DNA of 35,688 nt from a virus. Shown in pieces: positions 4,677-35,688 of the stretch. The first letter of the stretch is position 1; each line of letters starts with the position of its first letter. The notes below the pieces were generated by a model. That model was not told the DNA's origin. It ran no database searches and saw nothing but the letters and a program-made list of their open reading frames with translations. The stretch spans positions 1 to 35,688 of IMG/VR virus record IMGVR_UViG_3300000553_000141. The stretch is one strand, 5' to 3'. A program made the translations under genes and the position numbers.

Positions 4677-4682
4677 ATCTCA

Positions 4683-4690: not shown

Positions 4691-4710
4691 GAATAAATCA
4701 CATCCAGAAT

Positions 4711-4720: not shown

Positions 4721-4724
4721 TCAA

Positions 4725-4943: not shown

Positions 4944-4958
4944 AAGTGAGATAAATTT

Positions 4959-13339: not shown

Positions 13340-16221
13340 ACTATTCCATAGGCTCTTGCACTAATAAGCCTCATGTATTGATTGGCCCCAGAAGCATCCG
13401 TAACCCCGGCGAAACTCGCTGTACCGCTTGCGGAGGTTGGTATCATAGTCGTTGTGAACCCAGTGGCCATGTCATCCGCCCCAGAATTTCCTATCCACAC
13501 CGATGCCCTGAGAGTATTACTTGTAAGCGAACATTGCCCGTTTAAACAGGAGTCCTGGACCAGAGTGTATACTCGATTTGCCCCAGAACCATTATACCCC
13601 TCAAATTCTGCTTCCAATTTTATCATCGAATAATTATTTTGGGGAACCACTAGAGATCCGGTAAGACTTGTTGCCGGACCACACCAACACACACATGTTG
13701 GTGTTGGTAATGCGGGATTATATCCAGTAATATATACCATTGTCCCTGGTTTTAATGGTGCATAGGAAGCATATGATGCAGTTATTGCACGACTTGCTGT
13801 AACTTGATATGTGCCTGGATTTAGATAAGAAGAAGTATCGGCGCAACTAGCTGCTCCAGCAAAAATGGAAGTATTTGCTCCTGCAACATTTCCTATTACA
13901 TTACACCCCTTAATATAGCTTGCCGTATTTGCTAAATTTGGTGTAAAATTGATTGATGATGCTGTTGTAGAAGTTGTGGCAAAATTTGCAAGATTTGCTG
14001 TTAAGGAATAGTTTGCAGTACCAGCATTCGTTGCCCAGCTAGAAGTAATTCCATATGTTCCTAATGGCAAATAAGAGGAAGTGCTTGCCTGTACTGAATA
14101 ACTGGAAGAAACTGCATTATTTGAATTTACAGAGTATGAAGCAGTATTTGCCTGTACTGAATAACTGGAAGAAACTGAATTATTTGAATTTACAGAGTAT
14201 GAAGCAGTATTTGGAATAAAATTTATTGATGATGCCGTCAATGCACTTGTAGATGTATTAGAATTACAAGAATTTGTGGCAGTAGTTGCTGTATTACTCC
14301 AGCTTGATGTTATACTATAAACCCCCGGGGCTAAATAGGATGCTGATATTGCACATATCGAATTTGTAGAAAAACTTGAACTAGTTGAATTATTTGCAAA
14401 GCTTGCGGTAATACCATATACCCCAGGCATTAAATATGAAGAACTTGTGGATGTGCCGGTATTGTTTGCATAACTTGCTGTTTTGGCATAACTAGCAGAA
14501 ACCACATTTAATGCCCAGCTTGAAGTTATTGGATAACACGAACCAGTTATTAAAGTTGTTCCGCCGCTTCCACTATATCCTGTTAAAGCATAGCTGGCAG
14601 TGGTAGCATTACTGGCCGTAATATTGTATGAGGTTCCGGTTAAATTAGTGGCATTCGTTGCATTCGTTGCATTAACTGCATTTGTCGAATTGAGAGAGTA
14701 ACTCGAAGATTTAGCGTAACTTGCAGATACAGAGTTGTTTGCCCAGCTTGATGTTATTGGATATGTTGAACCCGTACTAAGAGTGGTTCCAGCGTTCAAG
14801 GCATAACTTGCTGTTAGCGATAAGCTTGATGTATTACTCCAACTTGAGGAAATTGGATATGTTGAACCTGTAACAAGAGTTGTGCCAGCGTTTAATGCAT
14901 AACTTGACGTATTACTCCAACTTGCTGTGATTGGGTATGTCGAGGCAGTTACAAGTGTAGTTCCGGCGTTTAAAGCGTAACTGGAAGTTGTAGAATTGTT
15001 GGACCAACTTGAAGTGACTTGGTATGTTGATGCTGTTACTAGAGTTGTTCCAGAATTCAACGCATAACTTGATGTATTACTCCAGCTTGATGTGATTGGA
15101 TAGCTTGAACCAGTTGATATTGTCGTCCCTGAATTTAAAGCATAGCTGGAAGTTATTGAATTATTTGAATAGCTGGCGGATTTAGCATAACTTGCAGATA
15201 CCGCATTATTACTCCAACTTGATGTTATTGGATATGTCGAGCCAGTAACTAGAATCGTTCCAGCATTTAATGCATAGCTAGAAGTAGTAGATGTTGTAGA
15301 GTTATTTGCCCAACTTGCTGTGATTGGGTATGTAGAACTAGTTACCAATGTAGTCCCAGCATTTAAGGCGTAACTTGCGGTATTAGAAGTTACAGAATTA
15401 TTACTCCAACTTGAGGTTACTTGATATGTCGATGCTGTTATAAGAGTTGTTCCTGCATTCACTGCATAACTGGCAGTTAAAGAGTTACTACTCGATATTG
15501 AATTATTGCTCCAACTTGATGTTATTTGGTACGTAGAACTTGTTACCAATGTAGTCCCAGCATTAATGGCATAACTTGCAGTTGTAGAATTATTAGACCA
15601 GCTTGATGTTATAGGATACGCAGAACCTGTAACAAGAGTTGTGCCAGAGTTTAGAGCATAACTAGCAGTGGTCGATGTGGCAGAATTATTGGAATAACTA
15701 GAAGAGGCTGAATTATTGCTCCAACTTGATGTAATAAGATATGTTGAACCAGTAATTAATGATGTTCCGGCATTCAATGCATAACTTGCTGTACTAGACA
15801 TTAGAGCATTACTGGAAGATATTGCTTTGGATGACCAGCTTGCAGTAATATTATAAGATGTACCAGTCAAATTTGTGGCATTAACTGAATTTGTTGAATT
15901 AACCGAAATACTTGCCGAATCACTATTCAACGAATAACTTGCTGTACTAGTATTTAAAGAATAACTGGAAGTATTTGATAAATTGGAAGTATTGGCGGTA
16001 TTAGATACCAACGCATAACTACTTGAATTTGCAAAATTGCTATAACTGCTTGATATTGACGAACTAGCATAACTCGCAGTTAAATTGTGGTCTGACAGAG
16101 AATATGATAATACTCGATAATTACTAAATGTGGTATCCCCATTGTCTCTTACAATAGGAACATAATCGGTATTTAGATTAACCGAGGATGTTATTAATTC
16201 GCTAAATTTTAATAGATTCAT
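13336..16221 (-). CDS. tail fibre with 12 AGTTLVTGSTYPITSSW repeats, 961 aa
   Basis: The N-terminus (FSELITSSVNLNTDYVPIVRD) matches the start of the two upstream fibres (DYIPF(V/I)RS), a likely particle-attachment module. The next roughly 780 residues are ASY/SSY repeats. They include 12 longer units of the AGTTLVTGSTYPITSSWSNN type, which probably form a trimeric beta-shaft. The C-terminal 150 residues (CVCWCGPATSLTGSLV to SARAYGIV) are non-repetitive and probably form the receptor-binding tip. It is the third gene of a cassette, with an SD AGGATAA overlapping the upstream stop. Expansion or loss of repeats is likely in the population. Confidence 0.75.
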   Translation of the reverse strand: MNLLKFSELITSSVNLNTDYVPIVRDNGDTTFSNYRVLSYSLSDHNLTASYASSSISSSYSNFANSSSYALVSNTANTSNLSNTSSYSLNTSTASYSLNSDSASISVNSTNSVNATNLTGTSYNITASWSSKAISSSNALMSSTASYALNAGTSLITGSTYLITSSWSNNSASSSYSNNSATSTTASYALNSGTTLVTGSAYPITSSWSNNSTTASYAINAGTTLVTSSTYQITSSWSNNSISSSNSLTASYAVNAGTTLITASTYQVTSSWSNNSVTSNTASYALNAGTTLVTSSTYPITASWANNSTTSTTSSYALNAGTILVTGSTYPITSSWSNNAVSASYAKSASYSNNSITSSYALNSGTTISTGSSYPITSSWSNTSSYALNSGTTLVTASTYQVTSSWSNNSTTSSYALNAGTTLVTASTYPITASWSNTSSYALNAGTTLVTGSTYPISSSWSNTSSLSLTASYALNAGTTLSTGSTYPITSSWANNSVSASYAKSSSYSLNSTNAVNATNATNATNLTGTSYNITASNATTASYALTGYSGSGGTTLITGSCYPITSSWALNVVSASYAKTASYANNTGTSTSSSYLMPGVYGITASFANNSTSSSFSTNSICAISASYLAPGVYSITSSWSNTATTATNSCNSNTSTSALTASSINFIPNTASYSVNSNNSVSSSYSVQANTASYSVNSNNAVSSSYSVQASTSSYLPLGTYGITSSWATNAGTANYSLTANLANFATTSTTASSINFTPNLANTASYIKGCNVIGNVAGANTSIFAGAASCADTSSYLNPGTYQVTASRAITASYASYAPLKPGTMVYITGYNPALPTPTCVCWCGPATSLTGSLVVPQNNYSMIKLEAEFEGYNGSGANRVYTLVQDSCLNGQCSLTSNTLRASVWIGNSGADDMATGFTTTMIPTSASGTASFAGVTDASGANQYMRLISARAYGIV
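14510..15800 (-). repeat. 12-copy coding repeat in fibre shaft
   Basis: Twelve copies of a coding unit, (A/S)GT(T/S)LxT(G/A/S)S(T/A/S)YPITSSW, are separated by variable numbers of ASY units. At DNA level the copies are similar but not identical, so this is an old, diverging array. It is not a CRISPR: spacing varies and the whole array is translated. Confidence 0.8.
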
Positions 16222-16222
16222 T

Positions 16223-18673
16223 TTATCCTATTTTTTGAAATCCAATGTATCCAGAATTTATACTTCCCGTAAGACTTCCACCAACAACCGTCATAGTCAG
16301 ATACCATGGTGTTCCACCAGTTATTAATTTTAATACTCCACGCAAATTTGCCGATATATCATATGCAGCACTTGTAGTTGTTAGACACAAGTTGCTGTTT
16401 GACCAGAACACTTTTGGGTTACCGTTATTGGCCCCGCCATATGTAGTTGGGTTACAAGTGTTTATATAATATGAGACAAATATTTTACTGGATGGATCTA
16501 CATTTGCGGTCAATGGCCCTGGAATAAAGGTTCCATCTGTTGCATACATTTGTACTGATGTTGCTCCGGTGTGTGTGTTATAATTTAAAAACGATTCCAT
16601 AATATAAGTCCCAATAGATGGGAACGTCATTGAATATATATAATAAGCATGAGGGGAACAACCTTGAGATATATTGTATATCGGCACGGATGTTATTGGG
16701 ATGTAACACATTTGGTTATAAGGACCGTTAATACGACCACTTACACAAAGATTATTTACATATGTTGTACAATTATTCGTAGCGGTTAGGTTGCTACCAA
16801 TAATAAATGAATCGGAGAAACCATTTGTCCAATTATCATGCCCGCCAAGAATAGCAGAACAACAACCATCCGAACAATTGTTTACTCCGCCAACAACAAC
16901 GGCCGAATAACCAGTTGAAGAATTTGAAACTCCTCCGCCAGCAAACGCACAATTCCCAGTTGATACATTGTTTAATCCTGCCACCGCTGTAGAATAGTTT
17001 GCGGATGCCTGTGTGTTATTTCCGCCACCAACGAAACTATAATTTCCACTTGCATCCCCACTTCCGCTTCGCAATGTTGAGTGTAATCCTCCAGACCCAG
17101 TAATATAAAGATTACAAAATTGTTCTCCATTTACTATTAATGTTCCGCCTATATTAATACCTCCGACATTAGTGGTTCCATTTACCGTTAAATCATTATT
17201 AATATTGGTTGATCCACTGACATCCATTGATCCACTGATAATATGAATTCCGTACACATTTAAGTTGTTTACATAGGTAGTGTAATCTGCGCTCGCTGTA
17301 ATGTTTGAGCCGATGATAAACGAATCAACATGGCCATTTAAACAATTTCCATTTCCACCTAATATTCCAGAATTAATTCCATCAACAACGTTATTTTTTC
17401 CACCTGCTATTACACCATAACAAGAACTTACTAGATTATTACACCCACCAAGCACAGTGCTTCCCGTCTGATTGGCAAAATTGTTATATCCTCCTCTTTC
17501 AGTTGCGGAGTCTCCACCGAAAGACCCAGTAGTAATTACGCCGCTACCTCCACCGCCGCCACCACTATAAGACATCGTTACGTTTCCAATCCCACATGAT
17601 GGAGAAATCGAAAGGCCACCAATAACAGATATTTGAGTTACTCCAGTATTAGATATTGTCACGGAACCAGTTCCTGATACTGGGTCGATTGATATACCGC
17701 TTCCTGTTTGTATTTGAATCACTCCGGAATTACAAATTGATACAATTCCTGTTCCTGATTCTGGGTTAATTTTAATTCCGCTTCCTGTACAAATTTGGGA
17801 TACTCCAGAACCGGCACCACCACCGAAAATACTTCCACTAACACAAAGATTGTTTACGTATGTGGTACAATTATCTGTAGCACATAGATTGCTACCGACA
17901 ATAAAGGAATTTGAATATGTTGAGTCTATAATGTTTTCACATCCACCAAGTATACCAGAATAGCTCCCAGATACAATGTTATTGTTTCCCCCACCCAAAA
18001 CTGTACTATAATCACCCGCGTAGTTAACAGCGTCAGCCCTAACAGTTGAAAGAATTCCTGAACTTGTTACAAAAAGACCAGCACCTCCCCCTCCAACAGG
18101 CCATACATATCGTGTTCCTTGGTTGTTCCAATCTATACCACCACTTATATGTAATGTTCCGCTAATAGTCATATCACCATATAAAGATTCGCTTCCACTC
18201 ACATTAAGACTGCCACTTATTGTATCTGTTCCGTAAACTGTTTCGCTTCCGCTAACATACCAACTGCCAGTTACGCTTCCTGTTCCATATAAAGATTCGC
18301 TTCCACTTATTAACGTACTGCCACTAACAGTCAATATACCATAAACTGTTTCGCTTCCTGATATATTTAAACTGCCTGTAATAGATTCGCTTCCCGATAC
18401 ATTTAAACTCCCTGTAATAGATTCGCTTCCCGATACATTTAAACTCCCTGTAATATTTAAGGATCCACTAATATTATAACTACCACTATTAATACTACCA
18501 GTTCCAAATGTTCCGCCGGATGGAGGAATACTACTAGAAATAAAATTTATGATTGAGATTTTGTAATTATTTTGATCCCAAGTATTTCCACCACAACTTC
18601 TAATAAACGGAATATAATCACAAGATGTAATAATGCTTGATGTTGTATTAAATTGACTTATTTTTGTTGACAT
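16223..18673 (-). CDS. tail fibre with SGSLNVSGSE and YadA-like head repeats, 816 aa
   Basis: The N-terminus (KISQFNTTSSIITSCDYIPF) matches the neighbouring fibres. Residues about 60-180 are 12-residue repeats of the SGSLNVSGSESITG kind. The middle contains head-type repeats such as STVLGGCNNLVSS and YSTAVAGLNNVSTGN, resembling left-handed beta-roll heads of trimeric autotransporter adhesins. Each block is followed by SFIIGSNLTATNNCTTYVNNL. The C-terminus (YIGFQKIG) matches the 436-residue fibre. The stop is embedded in the SD of the next gene (ATAGGATAAAATG). It is a trimeric fibre by inference. Confidence 0.75.
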   Translation of the reverse strand: MSTKISQFNTTSSIITSCDYIPFIRSCGGNTWDQNNYKISIINFISSSIPPSGGTFGTGSINSGSYNISGSLNITGSLNVSGSESITGSLNVSGSESITGSLNISGSETVYGILTVSGSTLISGSESLYGTGSVTGSWYVSGSETVYGTDTISGSLNVSGSESLYGDMTISGTLHISGGIDWNNQGTRYVWPVGGGGAGLFVTSSGILSTVRADAVNYAGDYSTVLGGGNNNIVSGSYSGILGGCENIIDSTYSNSFIVGSNLCATDNCTTYVNNLCVSGSIFGGGAGSGVSQICTGSGIKINPESGTGIVSICNSGVIQIQTGSGISIDPVSGTGSVTISNTGVTQISVIGGLSISPSCGIGNVTMSYSGGGGGGSGVITTGSFGGDSATERGGYNNFANQTGSTVLGGCNNLVSSCYGVIAGGKNNVVDGINSGILGGNGNCLNGHVDSFIIGSNITASADYTTYVNNLNVYGIHIISGSMDVSGSTNINNDLTVNGTTNVGGINIGGTLIVNGEQFCNLYITGSGGLHSTLRSGSGDASGNYSFVGGGNNTQASANYSTAVAGLNNVSTGNCAFAGGGVSNSSTGYSAVVVGGVNNCSDGCCSAILGGHDNWTNGFSDSFIIGSNLTATNNCTTYVNNLCVSGRINGPYNQMCYIPITSVPIYNISQGCSPHAYYIYSMTFPSIGTYIMESFLNYNTHTGATSVQMYATDGTFIPGPLTANVDPSSKIFVSYYINTCNPTTYGGANNGNPKVFWSNSNLCLTTTSAAYDISANLRGVLKLITGGTPWYLTMTVVGGSLTGSINSGYIGFQKIG
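18381..18455 (-). repeat. tandem 36-bp coding repeat
   Basis: A 36-base unit encoding SLNVSGSESITG is repeated directly and almost perfectly, followed by diverging copies to about 18200. In-frame slippage here would change shaft length. Confidence 0.7.
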
Positions 18674-18674
18674 A

Positions 18675-19985
18675 TTATCCTATTTTTTGGAATCCGAGAT
18701 AACTCATAGAACATAAGCATACAGGATGTGTAACATTACAAGAATTAAAACATAGATTTATTGTAGATGTTCCGTTGGTTTGGATTATTCCTCTAAGTTG
18801 TGAACTCATTTCTCCATGGTACGCAAAATTCAAATAAACGGGGGTGGTGCATGCAAATAAATAATCATTTGAACCAGGGCCAGATGGGTTTCCTGTAGCA
18901 ACATCGCCAGAATTATATTGATTATATCCATTAAAACTGAAATTTGATGAATGTCCCGAATTACATATTGAAACACTTCCTCCAGCGGAGAGTCCAGGAG
19001 AAGCGACATACGTTGTGTTAACAAAAAACAATGATCCCTCAAAAATATACGTTCCTGCTACTGGTAAAGTAAATGACAAATCGGTTATTAGACATGAGGA
19101 ATGAGATGCTGTTAATGAAGTATTTACGAATTTATATTGCATCGAATTGTCGAGATAACTGGCCGTTAACGAATAACTAGACGTATTTGCTCGAATAGCA
19201 TAACTTGCTGTTGTAACAAAACTGGCGGTTACTGCTTGACTTGAGGATAGTGCATAACTAGCTGTTGTAGCATAACTAGAGGTTACTGCTTGACTCGCTG
19301 ATAACGCCCAGCTTGAGGTTATATCGTAAGTTCCGGGTATCAAATATGATGATGTTAATGCATTAGTAGCCCAGCTTGATGTAGCGTATAAATTTCCCGA
19401 TACATATTCATTGCCACAAACATTTAAATTATTAACAAACGTTGTACACGATGCAGTTGCGGTTAAGTTTGATCCAATGATAAATGAATCACTAAACGAA
19501 GAATTTGAATTATCGTGGCCACCCAATATACCAGAACATTGTCCGTTAGTCACATTAGTACACCCACCCAAAACAACACTCCACGGTGCATTGGCAAAAT
19601 TATTACTATTAATTCGTTGTGTAGATGTCGTTGATGATCCCGTTGTATATAATCCCCCGGATCCTCCGGTCCCGCCGACAGAACTAATTGTAACTATGCC
19701 CAGCCCATTACTAGGACTAATAGTTATGTTGCTTCCCGTTAATATTTGGAGCACACCAGTGTTGGATACAGTAACGGTTCCCGTTCCAGAGGATGGACTA
19801 ACATTTATACCAGATCCCGAACAGAGTTGTGTAACTGAACCACTTACTCCGTTCATGAAATCACTAACTAAGATTTTATAATTATCTGCGTCCCATCCAG
19901 TACCAGTACTTCTTACAAATGGTATATAATCACATGAAGAGTTGATATTGCTGGACGTAGTAAATTGGCTAATAGGTTTTGACAT
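18675..19985 (-). CDS. short tail fibre paralogue, 436 aa
   Basis: This is the first gene of the three-gene fibre cassette. The N-terminus (PISQFTTSSNINSSCDYIPF) and the C-terminus (YLGFQKIG) are shared with the 816-residue fibre. The middle has VLGGCTNVTNGQCSGILGGHDN head repeats and a short ASY shaft. The tip (about 290-430, PVAGTYIFEGSLFFV) is probably a beta-sandwich. TATAAATA motifs (TATTTATA on the coding strand) lie 10 and 16 bases before the ATG. The three paralogues with different tips suggest a multi-receptor or exchangeable set. Confidence 0.75.
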   Translation of the reverse strand: MSKPISQFTTSSNINSSCDYIPFVRSTGTGWDADNYKILVSDFMNGVSGSVTQLCSGSGINVSPSSGTGTVTVSNTGVLQILTGSNITISPSNGLGIVTISSVGGTGGSGGLYTTGSSTTSTQRINSNNFANAPWSVVLGGCTNVTNGQCSGILGGHDNSNSSFSDSFIIGSNLTATASCTTFVNNLNVCGNEYVSGNLYATSSWATNALTSSYLIPGTYDITSSWALSASQAVTSSYATTASYALSSSQAVTASFVTTASYAIRANTSSYSLTASYLDNSMQYKFVNTSLTASHSSCLITDLSFTLPVAGTYIFEGSLFFVNTTYVASPGLSAGGSVSICNSGHSSNFSFNGYNQYNSGDVATGNPSGPGSNDYLFACTTPVYLNFAYHGEMSSQLRGIIQTNGTSTINLCFNSCNVTHPVCLCSMSYLGFQKIG

Positions 19986-21792: not shown

Positions 21793-22151
21793 GGTTTATC
21801 CTCTTCAAATTGCGAGCAGATCGGACCATCATCCAAATCTATATTATTTATCTTCTTAAATTCCGCCCTTAAAATTTTTGCATATCTATGATATGACGCA
21901 TTTATCAGTACTTTATATGCGTTATATAGTTTGAATTTTTTCTTGTCAGGTTCATCCTTGATTCTTGCCTCGATGAATGGGACCATTATTAATTTTTTAT
22001 CTTTAATATTCAGTTCTATTGCCTGTGTGCAAGCTTCCAGATATATATCGTCGCAAATATCTGAATCGACGGATATCTCCCGTTCAAAATCTTTTAATTT
22101 GGCAAATGAAACTACAATCGTTTGTGGCTTTACTTTTGTAACTTTTTTCAT
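21765..22151 (-). CDS. hypothetical protein, 128 aa, paralogue of 10718-11203
   Basis: It contains DDIYLEACTQAIEL and a helix YNAYKVLINASYHRYAKILRA, similar in order and spacing to the 161-residue protein by the adhesin operon. The C-terminus has a short Cys-containing, Lys-rich tail. It overlaps the helicase stop by four bases (ATGA) and the next gene by 28, so it is part of a tight operon. Function is unknown. Confidence 0.55.
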   Translation of the reverse strand: MKKVTKVKPQTIVVSFAKLKDFEREISVDSDICDDIYLEACTQAIELNIKDKKLIMVPFIEARIKDEPDKKKFKLYNAYKVLINASYHRYAKILRAEFKKINNIDLDDGPICSQFEEDKPCQKKSKTK

Positions 22152-24793
22152 AGTTTTAAATCCCCGTCGTTTAATAGTTCGAGATTGTCCAGTTTTTGTT
22201 TGACATTGTTGGCAACCTTTTCTTCAATAGTTCCGGAGATATATACAAATCGAATTATACTTTTGCTCTTGGAATTTTCTCTGACTGTTCTTCCGGTTAC
22301 CTGTTTCATTTTAAATGCACTATCATCCGGAGAAATTATAGAAATTCTTGGGTGGTCGCCATCCAAGTCCCCAATGCTCAGTCCAGTTCCTCCGGCAGCA
22401 CTATTGATTATGATAACCCGTTCGGTATTATTTTGAAAATCTTGTTTGTTTTTTTCTCGAACCTTATCTCCGACTCTACCATCAAAAATACATTTGGTAT
22501 TTAATCGTTCTGCCAATGCATCTATAGAAGCAGAAAAATTTAAGAATATTACTGCGGACATCCCCGCTTCAATTGCTTCATTAACCATCTCCAATATCAA
22601 TGGCAATTTAATCATCTCGGTTTTTTCTCTTGCCCTTAATCTGATAGTAAGCTCATTTTTGCAATCTTTCTTAATTTTCTTGTCAATTTTCTTTAGTTCC
22701 ATGTTCATCTCATCATAGATTTGATTGATTCTTTTAGTGCTGTCATCATCCAAATTATACGGACTAATTTCTGTTTCATATTCGGGGAAATTGGGGATTT
22801 CGTCTCGTCTCAATCTAACACCCCTATCCGAAAACAATGATTTGTGTATTCTTTTCAACACTTCCTTATCATTATTAAATTGGAATCCCCAGCGACCCTT
22901 TGTACACCCATTATCATATAAAAACTGATAATAATCTTTTGGACCCTTGAACATTTGTAAACACGTCCCGATTGTACGGAGTTCGAGGGGGGTGGTGGCT
23001 ATGCTTGCACTCAAAAACATCTGTTTTATTCCCTGTTTATACGCTTTCATACAGGTTTTGCTGTTTTTTGTCTTGAAATTCTTCAATTTATGGGCTTCGT
23101 CCCATATAATAACCGCATCTTTTGGCAATTTCCATAAAAATTCCTCTTTATGGGTCTTTTTATTCTTTATATATGAGGCAATTGGAGAGTCTGACTTACC
23201 ACGAATCAATGATTCATAATTAACAATGCCTATACAATTGTTTTTGATTGCAAAGTGGTTATCTATGACATCTTGCCACTGGCTAATAACTGCCTTTGGA
23301 CAGATTACTGCAAATTTGACACCAAGATCCCTTACTACACCAATGGAAGTATAGGTATTATGCGTAACTGTAAAATCTTTCATCAAATATCGATGATTAT
23401 TATCCAATGTAAATCCGTAATAATTTCCTATTCCCAGCGGTTCTACTCCAAACGATGTATGTAATACATTCTTTGGCTGAAGCCTTGGCTTGGAAAATTT
23501 TCGCCTAAGTTTACATGGGATGTCATTTGCACCACTAATACTTATTCTCCAATATTTGTTTGCGTATTTCTTACCCTTGTATGTCCATGTTCTATCAACT
23601 TTATTAGCTGTCGTGCAATACCCTAACGATCTGGACAATTCTACGATTTGATCGCAAAATGAATCATTTTTACAAGACACTTCATATCCACCATTACAAT
23701 ACGATGATCCACCAGAATCAATTATTCCAACCAACAAATTAATACGGGTAGTTCTATCATTGTGAAGATAATGCTCCGGTATAAACTTTATTTTATTCCG
23801 GGTTAACCCCAATTCTCGCATCTTATCTAGTAGAGGATTGGTGCCGCACATTTTTCCCCTAATATTATATGGGCGACATTTTGCAACTTTAGTCTCGTTG
23901 ACTTTTTTTGGGTTTCCAATGACCAATCTTAATCCTAGATCTTCAGAAAAATCTTTTAAAAATTGTTGGATTTCCGTGTCAATATCTGCAACAGATATTT
24001 CCATCCTGCACCACGTTCCATCTCCCAACCACAACCCAAGGAAATATGCATCTACCGAAATATCCTTTTTCGGATATTCCACACCATTTCTAAAAAGTTT
24101 CCATTCTGAATGAAACCTTGTAGATGATGTACATTTAAAAATATATTCTCTTACAGAAAATTCTGATATCTCCTTTGTACTTGTATTTATCAATACCAAT
24201 ATGTGCTCACCGTTAACGCCAAAAGCTTCTCCCCCAGTATATGGGTGTATATTAAACAAATCTCCATATCCGCGCGATGTAGATAATACATTTCGCACAG
24301 TAGAATCGTCTCCCATTAATTTATCACCAATAACAATGTCTTCTACTTTTTTGAGAGAACCGTCTAACATTCTTATTAATGTACCGGCTGGATGGCATTT
24401 TCCTACGCCCATTTCACTACCATCGATTGCACCTGACCACTGTTCCAAAGCGGAACACAATTTACCGGCAGAATCAACTTGCCATGTTCTAAGACCATCC
24501 TTTAACGAAATCTCTCGTGGTGGTAAAAAGAAAGTCGATTCTTTAATTATTGGTTTCTTATCTTCAAACCCTTTGAAATTATGTAAAAATGGATGGGTTT
24601 CCAGAAGATACCAATCGTTCTCCCTCTTAGTGACGTTAAACCCCTTATCTCTAAGCGCAAAGGAATTCTTTCTCCAGTAGTCAAAGAATTGTGCTCTGTA
24701 CTTTGTAGGAATAAGCCACTCTCGTTGATGATTTTCACCAAATTTGGTATCAATCTTAACAGGCTCACTCCATTTAACGTTCAAGCTAAACAT
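22148..24793 (-). CDS. UvsW/SNF2-like SF2 helicase containing an intein, 881 aa
   Basis: The exteins form a superfamily 2 ATPase. Walker A is GSEMGVGK|TYTSIG, interrupted after K132. Motif II is DEAH (565-568), motif III SAS (595-597), and motif VI QVTGRTVREN near the end. Without its 347-residue intein it is 534 residues, similar to UvsW-type phage helicases that unwind branched DNA and R-loops. The N-terminal 90 residues are a substrate-binding-like region. The gene is active only if the intein excises, because Walker A is split. It overlaps the next gene by ATGA. Confidence 0.8.
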   Translation of the reverse strand: MFSLNVKWSEPVKIDTKFGENHQREWLIPTKYRAQFFDYWRKNSFALRDKGFNVTKRENDWYLLETHPFLHNFKGFEDKKPIIKESTFFLPPREISLKDGLRTWQVDSAGKLCSALEQWSGAIDGSEMGVGKCHPAGTLIRMLDGSLKKVEDIVIGDKLMGDDSTVRNVLSTSRGYGDLFNIHPYTGGEAFGVNGEHILVLINTSTKEISEFSVREYIFKCTSSTRFHSEWKLFRNGVEYPKKDISVDAYFLGLWLGDGTWCRMEISVADIDTEIQQFLKDFSEDLGLRLVIGNPKKVNETKVAKCRPYNIRGKMCGTNPLLDKMRELGLTRNKIKFIPEHYLHNDRTTRINLLVGIIDSGGSSYCNGGYEVSCKNDSFCDQIVELSRSLGYCTTANKVDRTWTYKGKKYANKYWRISISGANDIPCKLRRKFSKPRLQPKNVLHTSFGVEPLGIGNYYGFTLDNNHRYLMKDFTVTHNTYTSIGVVRDLGVKFAVICPKAVISQWQDVIDNHFAIKNNCIGIVNYESLIRGKSDSPIASYIKNKKTHKEEFLWKLPKDAVIIWDEAHKLKNFKTKNSKTCMKAYKQGIKQMFLSASIATTPLELRTIGTCLQMFKGPKDYYQFLYDNGCTKGRWGFQFNNDKEVLKRIHKSLFSDRGVRLRRDEIPNFPEYETEISPYNLDDDSTKRINQIYDEMNMELKKIDKKIKKDCKNELTIRLRAREKTEMIKLPLILEMVNEAIEAGMSAVIFLNFSASIDALAERLNTKCIFDGRVGDKVREKNKQDFQNNTERVIIINSAAGGTGLSIGDLDGDHPRISIISPDDSAFKMKQVTGRTVRENSKSKSIIRFVYISGTIEEKVANNVKQKLDNLELLNDGDLKL
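23357..24397 (-). other. in-frame intein in helicase Walker A, with LAGLIDADG domain
   Basis: The intein covers residues 133-479. It begins CHPAGTLIRMLDGS (block A), has VNGEHILV (block B), and ends YGFTLDNNHRYL and FTVTHN, followed by Thr+1, so all splicing residues are present. The endonuclease domain has LGLWLGDGT as motif one, but the second motif reads LVGIIDSGG. The position usually occupied by the metal-binding Asp of LAGLIDADG is Gly. Splicing is probably intact while cleavage may be lost. Confidence 0.85.
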
Positions 24794-28353: not shown

Positions 28354-28662
28354 TCAATATTCTCTAATTTCGTTTAATTTTTCATTATATCGTATGAATT
28401 TACATCCCAACCGTTTCTTTATCATATTCATTCTTCTCATATCTTTGTTTTTAAGATTTCCCCATTTGTCATAGTGCTTTGGTTCATCATATTCAAACAC
28501 TATGTTTTTCTCTTTATCGTATCCATCAAGAAAGAACCCCACGATTTTATATTCTCCGCCATTTAATCCATGTTTAAAATTATACCCATTTTGTTTTCCA
28601 TATTCATAAATATTTGACTGGAAGGAAACCCCTTCGGCTTTAGCCAAGGTGTAGTTGACCTA
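28354..28662 (-). pseudogene. HE3 C-terminal nuclease domain, EDxHD/Vsr-like, frame-separated
   Basis: YKIVGFFLDGYDKEKNIVFEYDEPKHYD, KNKDMRRMNMIKKRLG and CKFIRYNEK (read in pieces) match the Vsr-like EDxHD family of phage homing endonucleases. Acidic and His residues are present. The frame has no good start; it opens after a TAG at about 28660, with only TTG at 28647. The preceding zinc-finger ORF ends within the same 20 bases in another frame. The two therefore look like one gene split by an indel near 28660. Confidence 0.65.
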
Positions 28663-29368
28663 TAAATTTACATCCAATAGGATTCACATTAATATTAATA
28701 CTATTACAGCTTCGACAGAGCTTACCATCTAATAGTTTAACTAAATATGCAAATTTATAACGAATTTTCTTACTACAGCGTGGACAAATTCTAACCTTCT
28801 GTTCTAATGGTTTTAATTTAGAAGAAAGAGAACATGATTTGCACAGTTTGTTTCCTTTCCTTGCGTAATTTCTATGTGCCTTTGATTTGTGAATTATTAT
28901 TTTATTACATTTAGGACAATTTCTGTGAAAATCTTCGGTAACATAAACTTTCCACGGTTTATTTGGATTTAATTTCTTAGCACAAAATTTACAAATTCTA
29001 TTATGTTCAATCGCAAATTTCCAATTACCTTTTAACGAATATGATAACAATCTATTACATTTAGGACAGTTTCTTGTATATTTTTGATTTTTATCAATTT
29101 TCGTACTTCCACAAGATCTACATACCTGTTTTCTTTTTTCTGCGCGGGTTCTTCCTCCCAATGTTGCATAACACTGCTCTCTGCCACATTTAAGACAATT
29201 TCTTTTCCATTTCTTTCCTGTTTCTAAAATAATATTCGAGAGTTCTTTTTCGGATTTTGTCTCCGTGTTTTTTGTAATATCTAAGGTCTCGAATTCTTTT
29301 TTGTTCTCGTAATTCTTCGATTGTTCTGTGTAACTTTTTTCTTCCCATATATTTATATTAGTCTCCAT
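28640..29368 (-). CDS. HE3 zinc-finger frame of homing endonuclease, 242 aa
   Basis: From about residue 55 the ORF has five CxxC zinc knuckles or ribbons (CLKCG, CRSCGS, CPKCNR, CKFCAK, CPKCNK and further pairs), the DNA-binding half of a Vsr-like homing endonuclease. Its first 50 residues (METNINIWEEKSYTE) are again the out-of-frame reading of the MGRKK module. The open frame starts at an ATG three bases after CTATTTATT, as in HE2. A native product needs a +1 shift from the module and then a second shift into the nuclease domain. Confidence 0.65.
   Translation of the reverse strand: METNINIWEEKSYTEQSKNYENKKEFETLDITKNTETKSEKELSNIILETGKKWKRNCLKCGREQCYATLGGRTRAEKRKQVCRSCGSTKIDKNQKYTRNCPKCNRLLSYSLKGNWKFAIEHNRICKFCAKKLNPNKPWKVYVTEDFHRNCPKCNKIIIHKSKAHRNYARKGNKLCKSCSLSSKLKPLEQKVRICPRCSKKIRYKFAYLVKLLDGKLCRSCNSININVNPIGCKFIGQLHLG
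29190..29348 (-). CDS. HE3 N-terminal MGRKK module (frame 0), 52 aa
   Basis: MGRKKLHRTIEELREQKRI is followed by RYYKKHGDKIRKRTLEYYFRN, nearly the same as the HE2 module, with many synonymous codon differences. The frame stops at TAA (29190-29192). The zinc-finger frame is +1 relative to it, as in HE1 and HE2. A purine-rich GAAAGAAATGG, a possible slip region, lies where the two must join. Confidence 0.65.
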   Translation of the reverse strand: MGRKKLHRTIEELREQKRIRDLRYYKKHGDKIRKRTLEYYFRNRKEMEKKLS

Positions 29369-30128: not shown

Positions 30129-30665
30129 TTATCGGAATGAAGGTCTAAGTAGACGCCATCTATCTGAATCAATGGGTATTGTTCCATTATCTATGTTCTT
30201 AATCGTTGTAAGTGCTTCGTCTATAGTATTATAGATGTATTTGTGTGGAATGGTTCCGAAGACCCAAAACGGAGTTTTTGCGCGGCCACCCTCTGTTACA
30301 AAGAAAATTGGTTTTTTGGAATAATTTGCAGAAAACATTTCTTCCCATGCACCACAAGTAGGAAAGTGTGGATTGATATAACAAAATACGAAATCTACAA
30401 TGTCTACACATCTTAAATCTTCTGACCGAACCTTTTTCATAATTGCTGATACTTCGTCGTATTTTTCAGAAGCAATTAAATCTTTAAGTTTAAATTGAAC
30501 GTCGTTATCTTCTTGGGTAGAATTGACAAATGGATGATTATATGGGTTTAATACAATAATACCCATTTCTTTTAATTGATATTCAACGTTATTACGCCAT
30601 GGTTTCCCATCGACATATTGCATTTGACCGCATAAATATACTCTAGTTTTATTCAGTAGATTCAT
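30129..30665 (-). CDS. nucleoside 2-deoxyribosyltransferase-like protein, 178 aa
   Basis: KTRVYLCGQMQY at the N-terminus, WRNNVEYQLKEMGIIVLNPYNHP, and VDIVDFVFCYINPHFPTCGAWEEMF fit the nucleoside 2-deoxyribosyltransferase/TIR-like Rossmann fold, with the acidic W-E-E segment near the active site. The start at 30665 (MNLLNKT) is chosen because it sits next to the fold; an in-frame ATG at 30683 adds six residues. Such enzymes move or hydrolyse the base of a nucleotide, possibly supplying or modifying phage precursors. It overlaps the preceding gene by 17 bases. Activity is not proven. Confidence 0.65.
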   Translation of the reverse strand: MNLLNKTRVYLCGQMQYVDGKPWRNNVEYQLKEMGIIVLNPYNHPFVNSTQEDNDVQFKLKDLIASEKYDEVSAIMKKVRSEDLRCVDIVDFVFCYINPHFPTCGAWEEMFSANYSKKPIFFVTEGGRAKTPFWVFGTIPHKYIYNTIDEALTTIKNIDNGTIPIDSDRWRLLRPSFR

Positions 30666-30969
30666 ATTTGGAAAGTTTCTCAATTTGTTCTAATTTATCT
30701 TTCAAGTTTTTAATTTCTCTATCACGCCAATATAATGCGTTAATAGTGATTGCAATGATTTGTGCAGGCGTTTCATCTTCCCACGTTCTATCTAGTGCCG
30801 GTTTTAATTCATTAATTAATAGTTCAAGATTATTAGATTCCGGTTGATATGTAGTCATAGTAGTCCAATATGGATTCCAAGACCAACCTTTATATTCATG
30901 AATTGTACATGGATGATAATACATTTTATTACACATCTGACAAAAATATTGTGGATCGCCGGTTGCCAT
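30649..30969 (-). CDS. small zinc-finger-like protein, 106 aa
   Basis: FCQMCNKMYYHPCTIHEY at residues 9-26 is a short Cys/His cluster that could bind zinc. The C-terminal third (WRDREIKNLKDKLEQIEKLS) is a coiled coil. The ATG directly follows the small ORF 30971-31099, two bases apart. It is not recognised as a known clamp-loader small subunit. Confidence 0.5.
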   Translation of the reverse strand: MATGDPQYFCQMCNKMYYHPCTIHEYKGWSWNPYWTTMTTYQPESNNLELLINELKPALDRTWEDETPAQIIAITINALYWRDREIKNLKDKLEQIEKLSKYESTE

Positions 30970-31115: not shown

Positions 31116-31841
31116 CTAACGAAGTTCTTTAAGAAGTCTTGCAATAGTTGCCATAAATGTTATCTCCCGGTCTACTACAAAAGATGACTGGAAAACCCCC
31201 TCTGCCAAAATTAAAATAGATACAACTTCCTTTCCTCTCGAAAACTCCGATGAATGTTCATACAGGAAACTATAAAATTCATCATAAAATCTTACATCAG
31301 AATCAGCAACCAATTGTCTAATAGAATTGAATGTTGATGACGTTGGATTTTTCAATAACTCCAATATCTTCAATTTAACATCATTATCAATCGCGTTATG
31401 CTTATTAATTACAAGTTTGCCATTATTTACTGATTGTTGTGCAAAGTTAATTACCTTACGCATATCAGGATAGTAAGTATTTACGATATAGCCCAAGTCA
31501 TCAATAGCAAACCCAATCTTCTCTTTATCTAAAATACTCTTGAGAAGCATAGCAACATCTTTCTTTGCTGGGGTCTCAACTTTGAATACTTGACACCTTG
31601 AAACAATTGGTGGTATCATTTTCTCAATATAATTGCAAGTTAAGATGAATCTTGTATGTAAAGAGAAGGTTTCAATCAAATTTCTAAGTGCTGCTTGGCC
31701 TTCAAGAGTAATCGCATCACAATTTGATGTAAGAATTTGAGTTTTTCCAACAAAAAAGTTATGATTTTGATGAACCGACAAATCATATGTATGTCGCTTT
31801 GTATCTAATTTTTTTATACTTTTAATTTTTAGGCTTAACAT
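31116..31841 (-). CDS. clamp loader large subunit, C-terminal piece with intein B C-half
   Basis: Residues 1-40 are the C-terminal half of a split intein (HTYDLSVHQNHNFF and QILTSN, then C+1; the penultimate residue is Ser rather than His). Residues 41-241 are clamp-loader ATPase: CDAITLEGQAALRNLIE continues Walker B, and CNYIEKMIPPIVSRC is the sensor/arginine-finger (SRC) motif, followed by lid and collar helices. The piece lacks a P-loop, so it can only work after trans-splicing to the 32866-33732 product. Its start overlaps the preceding endonuclease gene by 20 bases. It corresponds to the C-terminal two thirds of T4 gp44. Confidence 0.9.
   Translation of the reverse strand: MLSLKIKSIKKLDTKRHTYDLSVHQNHNFFVGKTQILTSNCDAITLEGQAALRNLIETFSLHTRFILTCNYIEKMIPPIVSRCQVFKVETPAKKDVAMLLKSILDKEKIGFAIDDLGYIVNTYYPDMRKVINFAQQSVNNGKLVINKHNAIDNDVKLKILELLKNPTSSTFNSIRQLVADSDVRFYDEFYSFLYEHSSEFSRGKEVVSILILAEGVFQSSFVVDREITFMATIARLLKELR
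31722..31841 (-). other. split intein B, C-half (40 aa)
   Basis: MLSLKIKSIKKLDTKRHTYD to LTSN, followed by Cys+1. Length and sequence order match C-halves of canonical split inteins such as gp41-1 and NrdJ-1 (35-42 residues). Confidence 0.85.
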
Positions 31842-32832
31842 ATTGAATTAATTTATTGTATTGTTTAATATTATACTTTGAAAATTTACTTTTGTCAACA
31901 TAATTCAAAATATTAGATTCGTTTATCCACACAAATTTTATATTATTTTTTAAACAATACGAAATCACAGCGTCCATTTTTTCTTTTTGTGTAATAAAAA
32001 CACTTCTCGGTTTCAACTCATATAAAATGTTGTTACTTTTATCAAAAAAATCAACGATTGTAATTCTAGAATTTCCATTCTTATCTATATATGGAACCCG
32101 AACCACCTCATACTCACACTGCCGATTTGATATATAAAAACACGCTTCCCACGAACTTCTAAATTTAATTATTTTATTATGGATTTTTATTTTAGATTCC
32201 CAGTGTGTCCAGCTATTTGTTATGGTTGGGGTGAACTCCCCCCTTTTAATTTTATCTTTTAATACCAACGATTGTTTCATTGCGGAATTTCTAATTTGGG
32301 CTTTCCCGGCGGCGGTTCCAAAATGTTTAATTAACGAAGAGGATATTTTTTTCCCCGATTTTCTACACGATTCTACCCACGACTTTCTTCCAACATTTGT
32401 AGATAATTTTTGTTTCCATCCAAATCTAACAGCATTTTGACGAGATTCTTCCATATTTTTTAGTTCTAATTTTGTGTGTAAATGTTTAACCGCGTTTTGA
32501 TTTGAAAATTCTTTTAGTTTTGAACAAGATTCGCAAAAATTTCCAAAATTATTTAAATCTTTTCGTTTTGAAGTATTGTTACATTTTGGATTTTTACATT
32601 TAGGAATTGGTAATTTCCAACAGGTTTTCCATATATATTCATATATAATTTTAGTTTTAGATAATGGAAAATGTTTTCTTAAATGTTGATACACACTATC
32701 TTTAAATTTAAGATTTTTACCACAATACGGACAGGACAATCTATCAAAAAATTTTATATCATCTATTTTATATGGCTCTGTGGGAGATTCCAATCTACAC
32801 TTTTGACATTTACAATTGTTTATATGCTTCAT
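31822..32832 (-). CDS. homing endonuclease inside split intein B, putative PD-(D/E)XK type, 336 aa
   Basis: The N-terminus has zinc clusters (CKCQKC, CPYCGK ending in H-x-x-x-H, CKNPKCNN, CESC). Then come short DNA-binding repeats (NAVRFGWKQKL, RKSGKKISSSLI). The C-terminus, KFRSSWEACFYISN, then VDFFDKSNNILYELKP and an IKFVWINES strand, looks like a PD-(D/E)XK nuclease with E...D...E-x-K (here ELK). It lies exactly between the two halves of split intein B and is probably the enzyme that spread this insertion. A CTATTTATC motif with a TTTTA block lies upstream. Confidence 0.7.
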   Translation of the reverse strand: MKHINNCKCQKCRLESPTEPYKIDDIKFFDRLSCPYCGKNLKFKDSVYQHLRKHFPLSKTKIIYEYIWKTCWKLPIPKCKNPKCNNTSKRKDLNNFGNFCESCSKLKEFSNQNAVKHLHTKLELKNMEESRQNAVRFGWKQKLSTNVGRKSWVESCRKSGKKISSSLIKHFGTAAGKAQIRNSAMKQSLVLKDKIKRGEFTPTITNSWTHWESKIKIHNKIIKFRSSWEACFYISNRQCEYEVVRVPYIDKNGNSRITIVDFFDKSNNILYELKPRSVFITQKEKMDAVISYCLKNNIKFVWINESNILNYVDKSKFSKYNIKQYNKLIQYVKPKN

Positions 32833-32854
32833 AATTATCCACTACCCTTCTATA

Positions 32855-32884
32855 GATAAATAGTCTCATTGTGTTGTAAAAGTC
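32855..32884 (-). promoter_or_regulatory. upstream element of intein B endonuclease
   Basis: On the minus strand TTGACTTTTAC lies 12 bases before CTATTTATC, then an SD-like AGAAGG. This resembles the blocks upstream of HE1-HE3 and IS607 but is more diverged. Confidence 0.3.
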
Positions 32885-33732
32885 AATATATTTTGAATAT
32901 TTTTAGAAATAATATCTTTCACTTTCATCTTTACAGGATTCCCGTTTTCATCATTAACATACCATTTATGTGAATCCGTACAAATTATTGTTTCTCCGTT
33001 CTCAAATTCTATCTCATAGACATCAGATTCTCCTTTATCAATTAGATAAAAAGGCCGCCATTCGATTTTTTGAGTATTAATATTCAAAGATTTAACCAAA
33101 TCAGATTCATCCTTTAACTCTTTAATTGGCATTTGTAATATATTACCATCTCTTAAAATAGTAACCAATGTTGTTTCATCCAAACATTCATCCAATACCA
33201 CAATTTTAATCGCATGAAAACCAGCAGATGATGCAAAGTCTTTAATCTTTGTGCGAATCACATCGATTCCATTTTCATCACTGGAATTAATGTATAAAAA
33301 GTCACAAGGAATATTCTTATATAGAATTTTGGCCGCTGCTGTATTATGACATATTATCCCCGATGATGTAATATATTCATGGGGGACATCAATCGATAAA
33401 TCATATACATCGCCCTCCGCCCCATTATTTGAAGATAAAATTGATAATTGTCCATGTATCGAATCTACAAGTTTCACATTTTTAATAAAATCAAATTTCC
33501 CATTAGACTTAACCAAATGGTTTTCATCACAGCAGATTTTAATATTATTTGATAAAACATATTCTCGTTTGACTCCATGTTTTTTAATTAAATAATTAAC
33601 CTTAGAATATAACAAAGTTGGCGTTTTTATATATAATTCTCTATTAATTTTTTGTGGGATATCATACTGATTATTGTCAATATTAAAAAAAGAAAATAAT
33701 GCTTGTATAGGAATTCTAAATGTTTTTTTCAT
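32866..33732 (-). CDS. clamp loader middle piece flanked by two intein halves, 288 aa
   Basis: The product has three parts. Residues 1-130 are the C-half of split intein A (block B CCDENHLV, then VYDLSIDVPHEY and ICHN). Residues 131-182 are clamp loader: TAAAKILYKN completes Walker A, and KIVVLDE begins Walker B. Residues 183-288 are the N-half of split intein B (CLDETTLVTILRDGN, VYEIEFENGETIICTDSHKW). It needs two trans-splicing events, one at each end. The ATG overlaps the stop of the upstream endonuclease (ATGA), so translation depends on that gene. Confidence 0.9.
   Translation of the reverse strand: MKKTFRIPIQALFSFFNIDNNQYDIPQKINRELYIKTPTLLYSKVNYLIKKHGVKREYVLSNNIKICCDENHLVKSNGKFDFIKNVKLVDSIHGQLSILSSNNGAEGDVYDLSIDVPHEYITSSGIICHNTAAAKILYKNIPCDFLYINSSDENGIDVIRTKIKDFASSAGFHAIKIVVLDECLDETTLVTILRDGNILQMPIKELKDESDLVKSLNINTQKIEWRPFYLIDKGESDVYEIEFENGETIICTDSHKWYVNDENGNPVKMKVKDIISKNIQNILTFTTQ
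32869..33186 (-). other. split intein B, N-half (106 aa)
   Basis: Starts at C183 with CLDETTLVTILRDG (block A) and contains CTDSHKW (block B). It ends where a contiguous intein would have its endonuclease domain, the canonical split position. Confidence 0.85.
33343..33732 (-). other. split intein A, C-half (130 aa)
   Basis: Block B (CCDENHLV) lies in this half, so the split occurs between blocks A and B. It ends ICHN followed by Thr+1. All residues needed for Asn cyclisation are present. Confidence 0.85.
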
Positions 33733-34688
33733 TGTTGTGTAAACTTTCTATTTAATTCGGTATATTCTTTAATATATGGATCTCGTTTTTTTACATTTGT
33801 GGTGTATGAATGGCAGGTATTACATAAAAAAATTAAATTTTTCCGTCTGTCATTTTTCTTATCAAAATCTATGTGATGCAAACAAAGTCTTGCATCCTTG
33901 TTTGATATTAAACATTTGCCGCATTTAAAATTTTGATTTTGTAGTATATCATATCTATAATTTTTATCATAAAACTTCCTAGTTCGTTCTCTATGAAGAA
34001 ACGTTTCATATTCATTAAATTCCAATAATGTCGATATAGTTTTATTCCAATACCTCTTAGCAAATTTCTTCTTTCCTTCTAATTCTCCGTAATATGACAC
34101 AAGTTCTTCCAATGTTTTATATTGATTCAACCCATTATTTCCCTTCTTATATGACAAATCCTCCCAAACATTGTTCTTCTTCAATGATTCAAACCACTTT
34201 TTATTTCTCTCTTCTACAATTTCATTCCCCCTATCGTATCCATATTTTTTTATCATTTTTTCTCTGCTAAATACTGATTGTCGTTCCTTTAATTTTAATT
34301 CAGCGTCCTCAACGGAATACCCCCTAGAAATATAATATTCAATTTTAGTATTAAACATTTGTGGATTATTTTTTCTATCAACTCGTTTTGAAAATCCAGA
34401 TTGAATTTCCTTTATCTTTTTATCAATTTCACTTAAATCTGTCCAACCACGTTCAATCCAAAACTCTTTCCTCAAAAATGTTTCACATTTAAGCCAATTT
34501 TGTATAAATTTTAGTAAATTTGACGATGTAATGGAAACGGTGGATTTTACCTTTTCATTAATTTCATTATATTTTGTTACATCAAATGATTTAAAATATT
34601 TATGTAAATTGTTCTTTATAATATATTTCTCCAATTCTTCTACAGAATGAATGTCTTCTTTCTTTATTTTGTGGTATGTTATAATCAT
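33729..34688 (-). CDS. HNH homing endonuclease inside split intein A, 319 aa
   Basis: The C-terminus has the complete HNH core CGKCLISNKDARL, CLHHIDFDKKNDRRKN, CNTCHSYT. The middle contains NUMOD-like repeats (YYISRGYSVEDAELKLKE, EKMIKKYGYDRGNE) usual in DNA-binding parts of phage HNH homing enzymes. It lies exactly between the two halves of split intein A. A TATATTTATA motif lies 27 bases upstream of the ATG. Its stop overlaps the next ATG. Confidence 0.85.
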   Translation of the reverse strand: MIITYHKIKKEDIHSVEELEKYIIKNNLHKYFKSFDVTKYNEINEKVKSTVSITSSNLLKFIQNWLKCETFLRKEFWIERGWTDLSEIDKKIKEIQSGFSKRVDRKNNPQMFNTKIEYYISRGYSVEDAELKLKERQSVFSREKMIKKYGYDRGNEIVEERNKKWFESLKKNNVWEDLSYKKGNNGLNQYKTLEELVSYYGELEGKKKFAKRYWNKTISTLLEFNEYETFLHRERTRKFYDKNYRYDILQNQNFKCGKCLISNKDARLCLHHIDFDKKNDRRKNLIFLCNTCHSYTTNVKKRDPYIKEYTELNRKFTQQ

Positions 34689-34715
34689 ATTGGTATTGGT
34701 ATTTCCCTATTCCTG

Positions 34716-34725
34716 TATAAATATA
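34716..34725 (-). promoter_or_regulatory. TATATTTATA motif upstream of intein A endonuclease
   Basis: The motif lies 27 bases before the ATG at 34688 and AGGAATAGGG follows it. The longer distance than elsewhere allows a normal leader with its own SD. Confidence 0.4.
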
Positions 34726-34731
34726 ACTAAT

Positions 34732-35013
34732 TTATTCAATAATCTCATATTTCTTTAAAATTTTATATTCATCATCCGACACATCCAGTTGAATGTCTAT
34801 ATATTCATTACCATCTAAACATTTACCTGTTCCGGGACTGCTGTTATAGAATAACAAATGAGGAATATCCTTCTTGTTAATAAAGGATTGTAAAGCATCC
34901 TTGAAAGATTTATCCGCAATATAGTCTTCCAATGTGGAAGGTCTAAATCTCTCCACCCAAATCGAATGGTTATTAACAACTGCTTCCGCTGGTATTCCAA
35001 AAAAATCATTCAT
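34732..35013 (-). CDS. clamp loader N-terminal piece with intein A N-half, 93 aa
   Basis: Residues 1-64 (HSIWVERFRPSTLEDYI to LLFYNSSPGTGK) are the start of a gp44-type clamp loader, ending at the Walker A Lys. Residues 65-93 (CLDGNEYIDIQLDVSDDEYK to EIIE) are a 29-residue intein N-half starting with Cys. The ORF ends there with a stop. It follows the sliding clamp by two bases, the T4 gene order 45-44. Confidence 0.9.
   Translation of the reverse strand: MNDFFGIPAEAVVNNHSIWVERFRPSTLEDYIADKSFKDALQSFINKKDIPHLLFYNSSPGTGKCLDGNEYIDIQLDVSDDEYKILKKYEIIE
34735..34821 (-). other. split intein A, atypical N-half of 29 aa
   Basis: Only block A is contained. Canonical N-halves are about 90-120 residues; very short ones are known from atypically split inteins such as AceL-TerL (25) and VidaL (16). 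The matching C-half is at 33343-33732. Confidence 0.8.
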
Positions 35014-35015
35014 TG

Positions 35016-35688
35016 TTATTCTCCTTTTAATTCTACCAAATAATATGTCGATTCAAAATCACCAGATACGAATCTCACCGAAGCCAACCCTGCATCACTT
35101 ATTTGCAATATTGCATCAGTACATTCGGAATTGGCATTCAAAATTTCTTTAAGATATTTGGCACTGAAATTAATTGATTTCCCCACGGTATCCTTGCCGA
35201 TTACAGGTTTTACATTAAGTTTAATACGATTACTATTTGTCGAAGTATTGCCAATAAACAATTCCAAGGCATTTTTCTTATTCATTGTCACGGTAAAAGT
35301 ATCAATATCTGATAATGCCGCCTTTGCCTTTAGAAATTTGGAAATAAAGTCTTGGGTCAATTCAATTTCTGCATTGAATGGAGGAAGTTTATTTATAGTT
35401 GGGGTTTTTGGAATAACACTTAAATCTGCGGTGACAAAATGAACATCTGTGGATGTATCATTAAAAGTCAAGGAAATAATTGTGCCATCGGCTTTTTTAT
35501 TCGGTTCTATTGTAACATCTTCTCCAAGAACTCCTAACATAGATTTTAATTTTGACGTATTATGTATTCCGATATTACAATCAGACGTAATGGCATCAAA
35601 CTTGTTATATTTTACCCCTACCAATACACATTTTTCAGGGGTGGTGGTAAGGGTTGATAACAATGTATTTTTTGAATCAATTACCAGT
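35016..35688 (-). CDS. sliding clamp (gp45-like), 5' truncated
   Basis: Without its start, at least 223 residues are in frame to the window edge; T4 gp45 has 228. The fold pattern (CNIGIHNTSKLKSMLGVL, DVHFVTADLSVIPKTP, KSINFSAKYLKEILN, FESTYYLVELKGE) matches T4-type clamps. The TTG at 35663 is not needed as a start, because the frame stays open past it. The clamp holds the polymerase on DNA and, in T4, activates late transcription. The adjacent clamp loader supports this assignment. Confidence 0.85.
   Translation of the reverse strand, partial: LVIDSKNTLLSTLTTTPEKCVLVGVKYNKFDAITSDCNIGIHNTSKLKSMLGVLGEDVTIEPNKKADGTIISLTFNDTSTDVHFVTADLSVIPKTPTINKLPPFNAEIELTQDFISKFLKAKAALSDIDTFTVTMNKKNALELFIGNTSTNSNRIKLNVKPVIGKDTVGKSINFSAKYLKEILNANSECTDAILQISDAGLASVRFVSGDFESTYYLVELKGE

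Follow-up and report, generated by a model that had tools for sequence, protein, structure and literature searches.

Fractured genes were reportedly described by Dassa et al. in 2009 (NAR 37:2560), with each locus in two parts. These loci reportedly combine a phage replication or repair gene with a split intein whose two halves enclose a free-standing endonuclease gene, and the same combination is found in the viral DNA considered here, the complete IMG/VR record IMGVR_UViG_3300000553_000141 (the window; 35,688 bases, probably part of a larger genome). In the window, however, the gene, which encodes a clamp loader, lies in three parts and carries two different split inteins, intein 1 in the Walker A motif (site 1) and intein 2 in the Walker B motif (site 2). 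Earlier work covers fractured genes, among them those of Dassa et al. (cited by PMC7090010 and PMC6892783), as well as RFC inteins at GK|T and split inteins of the atypical kind (PMC11766414, PMC2814812, PMC6892783), but two fractures in one gene look new. The first-pass annotation of this DNA took the tandem double fracture to be apparently undescribed, and the literature searched, which was mostly outside subscription journals and without Dassa et al. 2009, likewise yielded no gene in nature that carries a pair of split inteins.

The atypical split inteins include AceL-TerL (25/104), GOS-TerL (37/115), and Cat-TerL (30/104) (PMC11766414). Intein 1 resembles the TerL-type inteins and VidaL in having a short N-half of 29 residues and a long C-half of 130, with a profile and fold that match VidaL, but it differs from them in residing in a clamp-loader Walker A, in its somewhat longer C-half, and in that a canonical split intein is present in the same protein. 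Intein 2 resembles Npu DnaE and gp41-1 in its 106/40 split and DnaE-like ...SN end, although its host gene and insertion site are others. Archaeal RFC small-subunit genes carry inteins at sites a (Lys51/Thr52), b, and c, with several per gene known (PMC2814812). Site 1 of the window is archaeal site a, whereas site 2, which falls at A. fulgidus Glu110/Ala111 by alignment, is not among the three; in that paper, the only one compared, the archaeal inteins are given as single-protein inserts, whereas the gene in the window is split. The DNA polymerase B of Pseudomonas phage MIJ3 has a split intein with HNH (PMC6892783), and there, as in the window, the intein encloses an HNH gene within a phage replication gene, but with one fracture and in a different gene. 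Three-segment tandem protein trans-splicing, with three pieces linked through two split inteins that are mutually orthogonal, has been engineered (PMC12707363, PMC11271493); that scheme is man-made, whereas the predicted counterpart in the window is natural.

The locus occupies 31116-35013 on the minus strand, where five open reading frames (ORFs) directly follow a sliding-clamp-like ORF. Its features, in the order of transcription, are as follows.

34732-35013, minus strand: N-piece ORF, 93 aa
34822-35013, minus strand: N-extein, clamp loader residues 1-64, ending ...SPGTGK with the Walker A Lys
34735-34821, minus strand: IntN1, 29-residue N-half of intein 1 with Cys1, an atypical short half
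33729-34688, minus strand: enclosed predicted nuclease 1 (P0002), 319 aa, with an RGY..E-type repeated N-part and an HNH C-part
32866-33732, minus strand: middle-piece ORF, 288 aa
33343-33732, minus strand: IntC1, 130-residue C-half of intein 1, ending ...IICHN
33187-33342, minus strand: middle extein, clamp loader residues 65-116 (TAAAK...VVLDE)
32869-33186, minus strand: IntN2, 106-residue N-half of intein 2, with Cys1 and block B CTDSH
31822-32832, minus strand: enclosed predicted nuclease 2 (P0004), 336 aa, with a zinc-finger-like N-part and a PD-(D/E)XK/TnsA-like C-part
31870-31898, minus strand: sigma-70 consensus promoter, 12/12, TTGACA-17-TATAAT, within the 3' end of nuclease 2
31116-31841, minus strand: C-piece ORF, 241 aa
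31722-31841, minus strand: IntC2, 40-residue C-half of intein 2, ending ...ILTSN
31119-31721, minus strand: C-extein, clamp loader residues 117-317, with Cys+1, sensor 1 TCNY, and the SRC motif

An AAGGAG ribosome site stands immediately 5' of the N-extein start. The three ORFs carry consecutive parts of a gp44-type ATPase, as the first-pass annotation had claimed (64 + 52 + 201 = 317 residues), and, once joined, the broken gene is a phage RFC/gp44-type clamp loader. The joined chain matches the phrog_168 clamp loader with 243.6 bits (E of 8e-72, positions 4-307 of 314), compared to 51, 42, and 113 bits for the N-, middle, and C-pieces singly (4.3e-32 for the C-extein alone), and it matches the archaeal RFC small subunit (1.6e-44) and T4 gp44 (2.3e-31) in the PDB. 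With this full-length family match go Walker A, Walker B, sensor 1, and the SRC motif. Alignment to intact homologues locates both cuts to the exact residue, at GTGK|T in Walker A and LDE|C in Walker B, and upholds the claimed positions between the Walker A Lys and Thr and within DE|CD. The coding region of a conserved enzyme is thus distributed over separate ORFs, as in fractured genes, but with two breaks and three pieces rather than one break and two parts. Because the identical two cuts recur in further contigs, the arrangement is not due to chance.

Complementary intein halves flank both cuts, each pair having Cys1, a block B His, a terminal Asn, and a nucleophilic +1 residue: Cys1...HisAsn|Thr for intein 1 (29+130 residues) and Cys1...SerAsn|Cys for intein 2 (106+40). 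These splice residues had been read correctly from the sequence, as had the presence of two split inteins, a reading that we refine in that intein 1 has an atypical short N-half and intein 2 is canonical. In intein 1 the N-half lies within the roughly 15 to 40 aa typical of atypical splits and block B (CDENH) is in the C-half; intein 2, aligned with DnaE and gp41-1, is broken at the endonuclease position near the canonical 100/40. The profile search that the first-pass annotation had proposed gave intein matches for each pair. Against the curated NCBIfam cutoffs (24.5 bits for intein_Nterm and 15.6 for intein_Cterm), the middle ORF scores 34.1 bits in IntN2 (4.2e-8) and 17.6 in IntC1, and the C ORF scores 29.6 bits in IntC2 (5.8e-7) to intein_Cterm; IntN2 also matches Pfam Intein_splicing (4.6e-11). 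The 29-aa IntN1 is below the length that the NCBIfam intein models need, and it aligns with the contiguous site-1 intein of LR756508.1 and the split halves of L057, L060, L071, and L117. Compared to solved structures, the intein 1 profile matches DnaE inteins (E of 1.4e-4) and, weakly, VidaL (0.025), while joined intein 2 matches Npu DnaE (3.5e-5) and also gp41-1. In an AlphaFold model of the middle ORF, of moderate confidence (predicted local distance difference test [pLDDT] of 64), the leading structural matches are inteins, including VidaL, Npu DnaE, Cat, and gp41-1. No significant mutual similarity was found between intein 1 and intein 2.

Group I introns interrupt many phage genes (PMC12363816), and the gaps might be such introns, with nuclease genes, spliced from RNA. 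However, intein models match at both sites, relatives carry in-frame contiguous inteins at both, and Rfam has no match within the window, on which ground we rejected introns; their probability is close to nil. A third intein in the record, in an SNF2-type helicase (22148-24793, minus strand), is contiguous and lies likewise at Walker A GK|T; it includes a homing-endonuclease domain, which Pfam Hom_end_hint matches at 8e-16 and Hom_end at 2e-9.

By sequence, an endonuclease ORF lies between the halves at both sites, one per gap, as the first-pass annotation had noted. P0002 matches PHROG HNH endonuclease families with E values down to 5e-8, and P0004 matches the phrog_15427 endonuclease (5e-20) and, under the cutoff, a Pfam TnsA_N-like domain (8.7e-5), so that they are predicted to be an HNH and a PD-(D/E)XK-like nuclease, respectively. 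P0004 is 38% identical to the nuclease in site 2 of L073; as sole query against viral contigs it had no match, its relatives surfacing only via the intein-2 alignment, and its AlphaFold model, from two sequences, has a low pLDDT of 34. Nucleases of the P0004 type are also enclosed in Walker B (DE|C) breaks of the terminase large subunit in T4-like phages, namely, Yersinia phage phiR1-RT (L054, 1929-4778) and Shewanella phage Thanatos-2 (L055, 467-3567; fused behind the intein N-half), and of a helicase in Prevotella phage Lak-B2 (L056, 2205-5001). The cultured Vibrio phage vB_VmeM-32 (L052, KU160494.1) has adjacent fractured genes for UvsX and a gp41-like helicase (29-1996 and 2331-5406), each enclosing a nuclease and annotated as hypothetical proteins; the helicase fracture is a short-N-half split whose nuclease has P0002 repeats. 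In L064, L065, and L066, genes of the RadA-like and UvsX-like kinds are cut at the GK|T of Walker A; their intein N-halves are short, and they enclose nucleases.

Related contigs contain the uninterrupted homologues that the first-pass annotation had proposed to look for, with 72% identity in L004/L005 (319 aa) and 55% in L006, as well as about 40 more distant intact clamp-loader genes. Scans with the intein-1 and intein-2 alignments collected the versions of sites 1 and 2, respectively. At site 1, LR756508.1, a 484-kb uncultured phage, has a contiguous intein without a nuclease at exactly the same position; the site is split with a nuclease of another type in L061 and L062, with an HNH relic in L057 to L059, and without a nuclease, across a 10-nt gap, in L071. 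The site-1 intein of L072 is contiguous, clusters with split L057 and L060 (98/99 support), and is without the segment around the break; it was apparently re-fused from the split state. Intein 2 occupies site 2 in about 47 clamp-loader loci, near-duplicates among them, and most of these loci have a P0004-like nuclease; the intein is contiguous in L075 and L077 and split without a nuclease in L085, L105, and L115. L076 is split at site 1 and contiguous at site 2. Scanning genome contigs with an alignment of the middle ORF gave no match, and neither the locus DNA nor intein 2 had a match among annotated phages. LR756508.1 also has, 5' of its clamp genes (L007, 745-2610), an apparent DNA polymerase C-part, joined at ...VVHN|TDSVFY to an intein C-half that precedes it.

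Other contigs share the double fracture with the window, and there it persists after loss of both nucleases. L060 (IMGVR_UViG_3300009451_000109) and L117 (IMGVR_UViG_3300012271_000374) each have the clamp loader in three ORFs with both cuts identical, extein pieces of 62/52/203 residues, and splits of 27/130-131 for intein 1 and 101-102/40-42 for intein 2. Both nucleases are reduced to relics in these two contigs. In L060 one relic is the 3' end of an HNH gene (39% to P0002 258-319; E of 1e-12), such 3' relics of a P0002-like gene occurring in both L057 and L060, and the other is the 3' end of a P0004-like gene (38%; 6e-11). The second gap of L117 likewise holds a P0004-like relic, and its first gap, of 45 nt, retains what by eye are the final codons of an HNH gene. 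Each nuclease-less gap of L060 has one copy of a 53-nt element (6093-6145 and 7177-7229; 92% identical) with a CCCCT/AGGGG hairpin, of which the contig holds just these two copies. L060, a small contig, has a second fractured gene (3877-5480), in which an intein C-half precedes an IMP-dehydrogenase-like C-piece and a nuclease ORF adjoins on the 5' side.

In the extein tree, the window clusters with the empty L004 and L006 (98/94 and 99/96), and L060 and L117 fall in a separate supported clade with single-site versions (100/99), so the double state is present in two clades. The simplest reading is a separate gain in each, although an older double presence followed by losses is possible; one double invasion inherited by the window and L060 was dropped, as the trees place them in separate supported clades. 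Haloarchaeal double inteins mostly enter alleles already carrying one intein (PMC10643990), a pattern that fits the abundance of single-site versions.

When the window is compared with L060, divergence is greatest at third codon positions in 7/7 segments (e.g., 37/15/56% for IntN2 and 22/11/44% for IntN1 at the three positions), though L060 is without both nucleases, and protein-level constraint thus acts on all intein segments. The first-pass annotation had named a second intact clamp loader as a result that would refute it; none is present in the 35.7-kb record, in the 161.7-kb contig of the site-2-fractured relative L111, or in the 115- to 119-kb contigs of intact relatives. Because of this constraint and the lack of another clamp loader in the relatives' contigs, the three pieces are probably the phage's working clamp-loader gene. 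A decaying pseudogene or an assembly artifact in a phage that relies on another clamp loader could be imagined, as the record is a fragment, but every ORF is open, the codon positions are constrained, contigs from other samples have the arrangement, and L111 holds no further copy; we judge this highly unlikely. Phage enzymes split by free-standing endonucleases do work, phage Aeh1 NrdA and phage 25 gp43 being reported examples (PMC2988022), and the three pieces might similarly form an active ATPase non-covalently, unspliced. Those breaks, however, are without intein halves, whereas the four halves here retain splice residues and constraint even without nucleases, contiguous inteins sit at both of these sites, and the cuts fall inside Walker A and Walker B, making unspliced assembly very improbable.

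We read the observed anatomy, empty sites, recurrence, relics, and protein-level constraint as very probably those of two independently mobile split-intein/endonuclease cassettes in one gene, with two trans-splicing reactions restoring the protein. The cassettes, which pair one split intein with one homing endonuclease gene apiece, would have invaded sites 52 codons apart, leaving three precursors, N-extein-IntN1, IntC1-middle-IntN2, and IntC2-C-extein; splicing at Walker A (Cys1/Thr+1) and Walker B (Cys1/Cys+1) would yield the normal 317-residue ATPase. Mispairing should be prevented because the splits differ (29/130 versus 106/40): IntN1 with IntC2 would miss the middle of the fold, and IntN2 with IntC1 would duplicate it. 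The middle ORF has the layout IntC1-extein-IntN2, a topology that serves for making cyclic peptides, and here the differing split sites should block self-cyclization. The wider proposal, that an essential ATPase is routinely built from three translated pieces by naturally orthogonal atypical and canonical split inteins, and that two or more phage lineages share this state, which outlived the loss of both endonucleases, we consider likely.

Several points weigh against this reading. Splicing, orthogonality, homing, and promoter use are inferred from sequence, and a second clamp-loader gene may lie elsewhere in the genome of which the record is a fragment. In intein 1, block B (CDENH) has Asp replacing the usual Thr, an Asp common to its relatives, and in intein 2 a Ser precedes the final Asn, as in DnaE inteins. 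The strong promoter described below is missing from every site-1 locus and from the majority of site-2 loci.

In the window the nuclease ORFs run 4 and 20 nt into the downstream pieces, and in L052, L061, L062, and L073 the overlap is 29 to 41 nt. A 12/12 sigma-70 consensus lies 28 nt ahead of the C-piece ATG in the window, with 12/12 at the equivalent place in L116 and L121 and 11/12 in L119, compared to 0.005 such matches per 3.9 kb of shuffled region. This recurrence may partly stem from shared protein sequence, since the residues encoded there (e.g., VD...YN) favor such hexamers, though the codons that the hexamers cover in L121 and L119 are not those that they cover in the window and L116. 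The promoter may be used; a strong promoter before every downstream piece was dropped, as it is present at some site-2 loci only. Their overlap with the downstream pieces, together with the promoter that one of them holds at site 2, may be what lets the 3' ends of the nuclease genes outlast nuclease decay. A second 12/12 consensus, at 993 on the minus strand just ahead of the ORF at 666-959, suggests use of host-type promoters by the phage.

Two genes flank the locus.

35016-35687, minus strand: sliding-clamp-like ORF, truncated by the record end, phrog_12062 at 1.3e-7 (function unnamed)
30129-30683, minus strand: nucleoside-deoxyribosyltransferase-like gene, downstream

The former likewise adjoins the clamp loader in L004 and L006, and the latter directly follows the intact clamp loader in L006. 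Elsewhere in the record, at 11294-13070 (plus strand), a TnpB-like protein (Cas12f1-like TNB, 7e-19) is encoded after a serine resolvase (Pfam, 7e-19), the predicted makeup of an IS607-like element. Very long ORFs at 4959-8330 (plus strand) and 13336-19985 (minus strand) with degenerate Ser/Thr-rich repeats, e.g., SSYALNAGTTLVTGSTYPITSSWSN, are probably tail-fibre-like. The overlapping ORFs 28640-29368 and 28354-28647 (28354-29368, minus strand), which resemble zinc-ribbon and restriction-like nuclease parts, are possibly one frameshifted nuclease.

At two precisely defined sites, the clamp loader presents nearly all stages in the life cycle of an intein, namely, empty, contiguous, split with a nuclease, with a relic, or with nothing, and apparently re-fused (L072), and such a series makes it directly testable in which order the stages arose and how costly the split is. 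If our reading is true, these phages would provide a natural precedent for three-piece protein assembly, hitherto an engineering scheme, and a source of split-intein pairs that already coexist within one protein.

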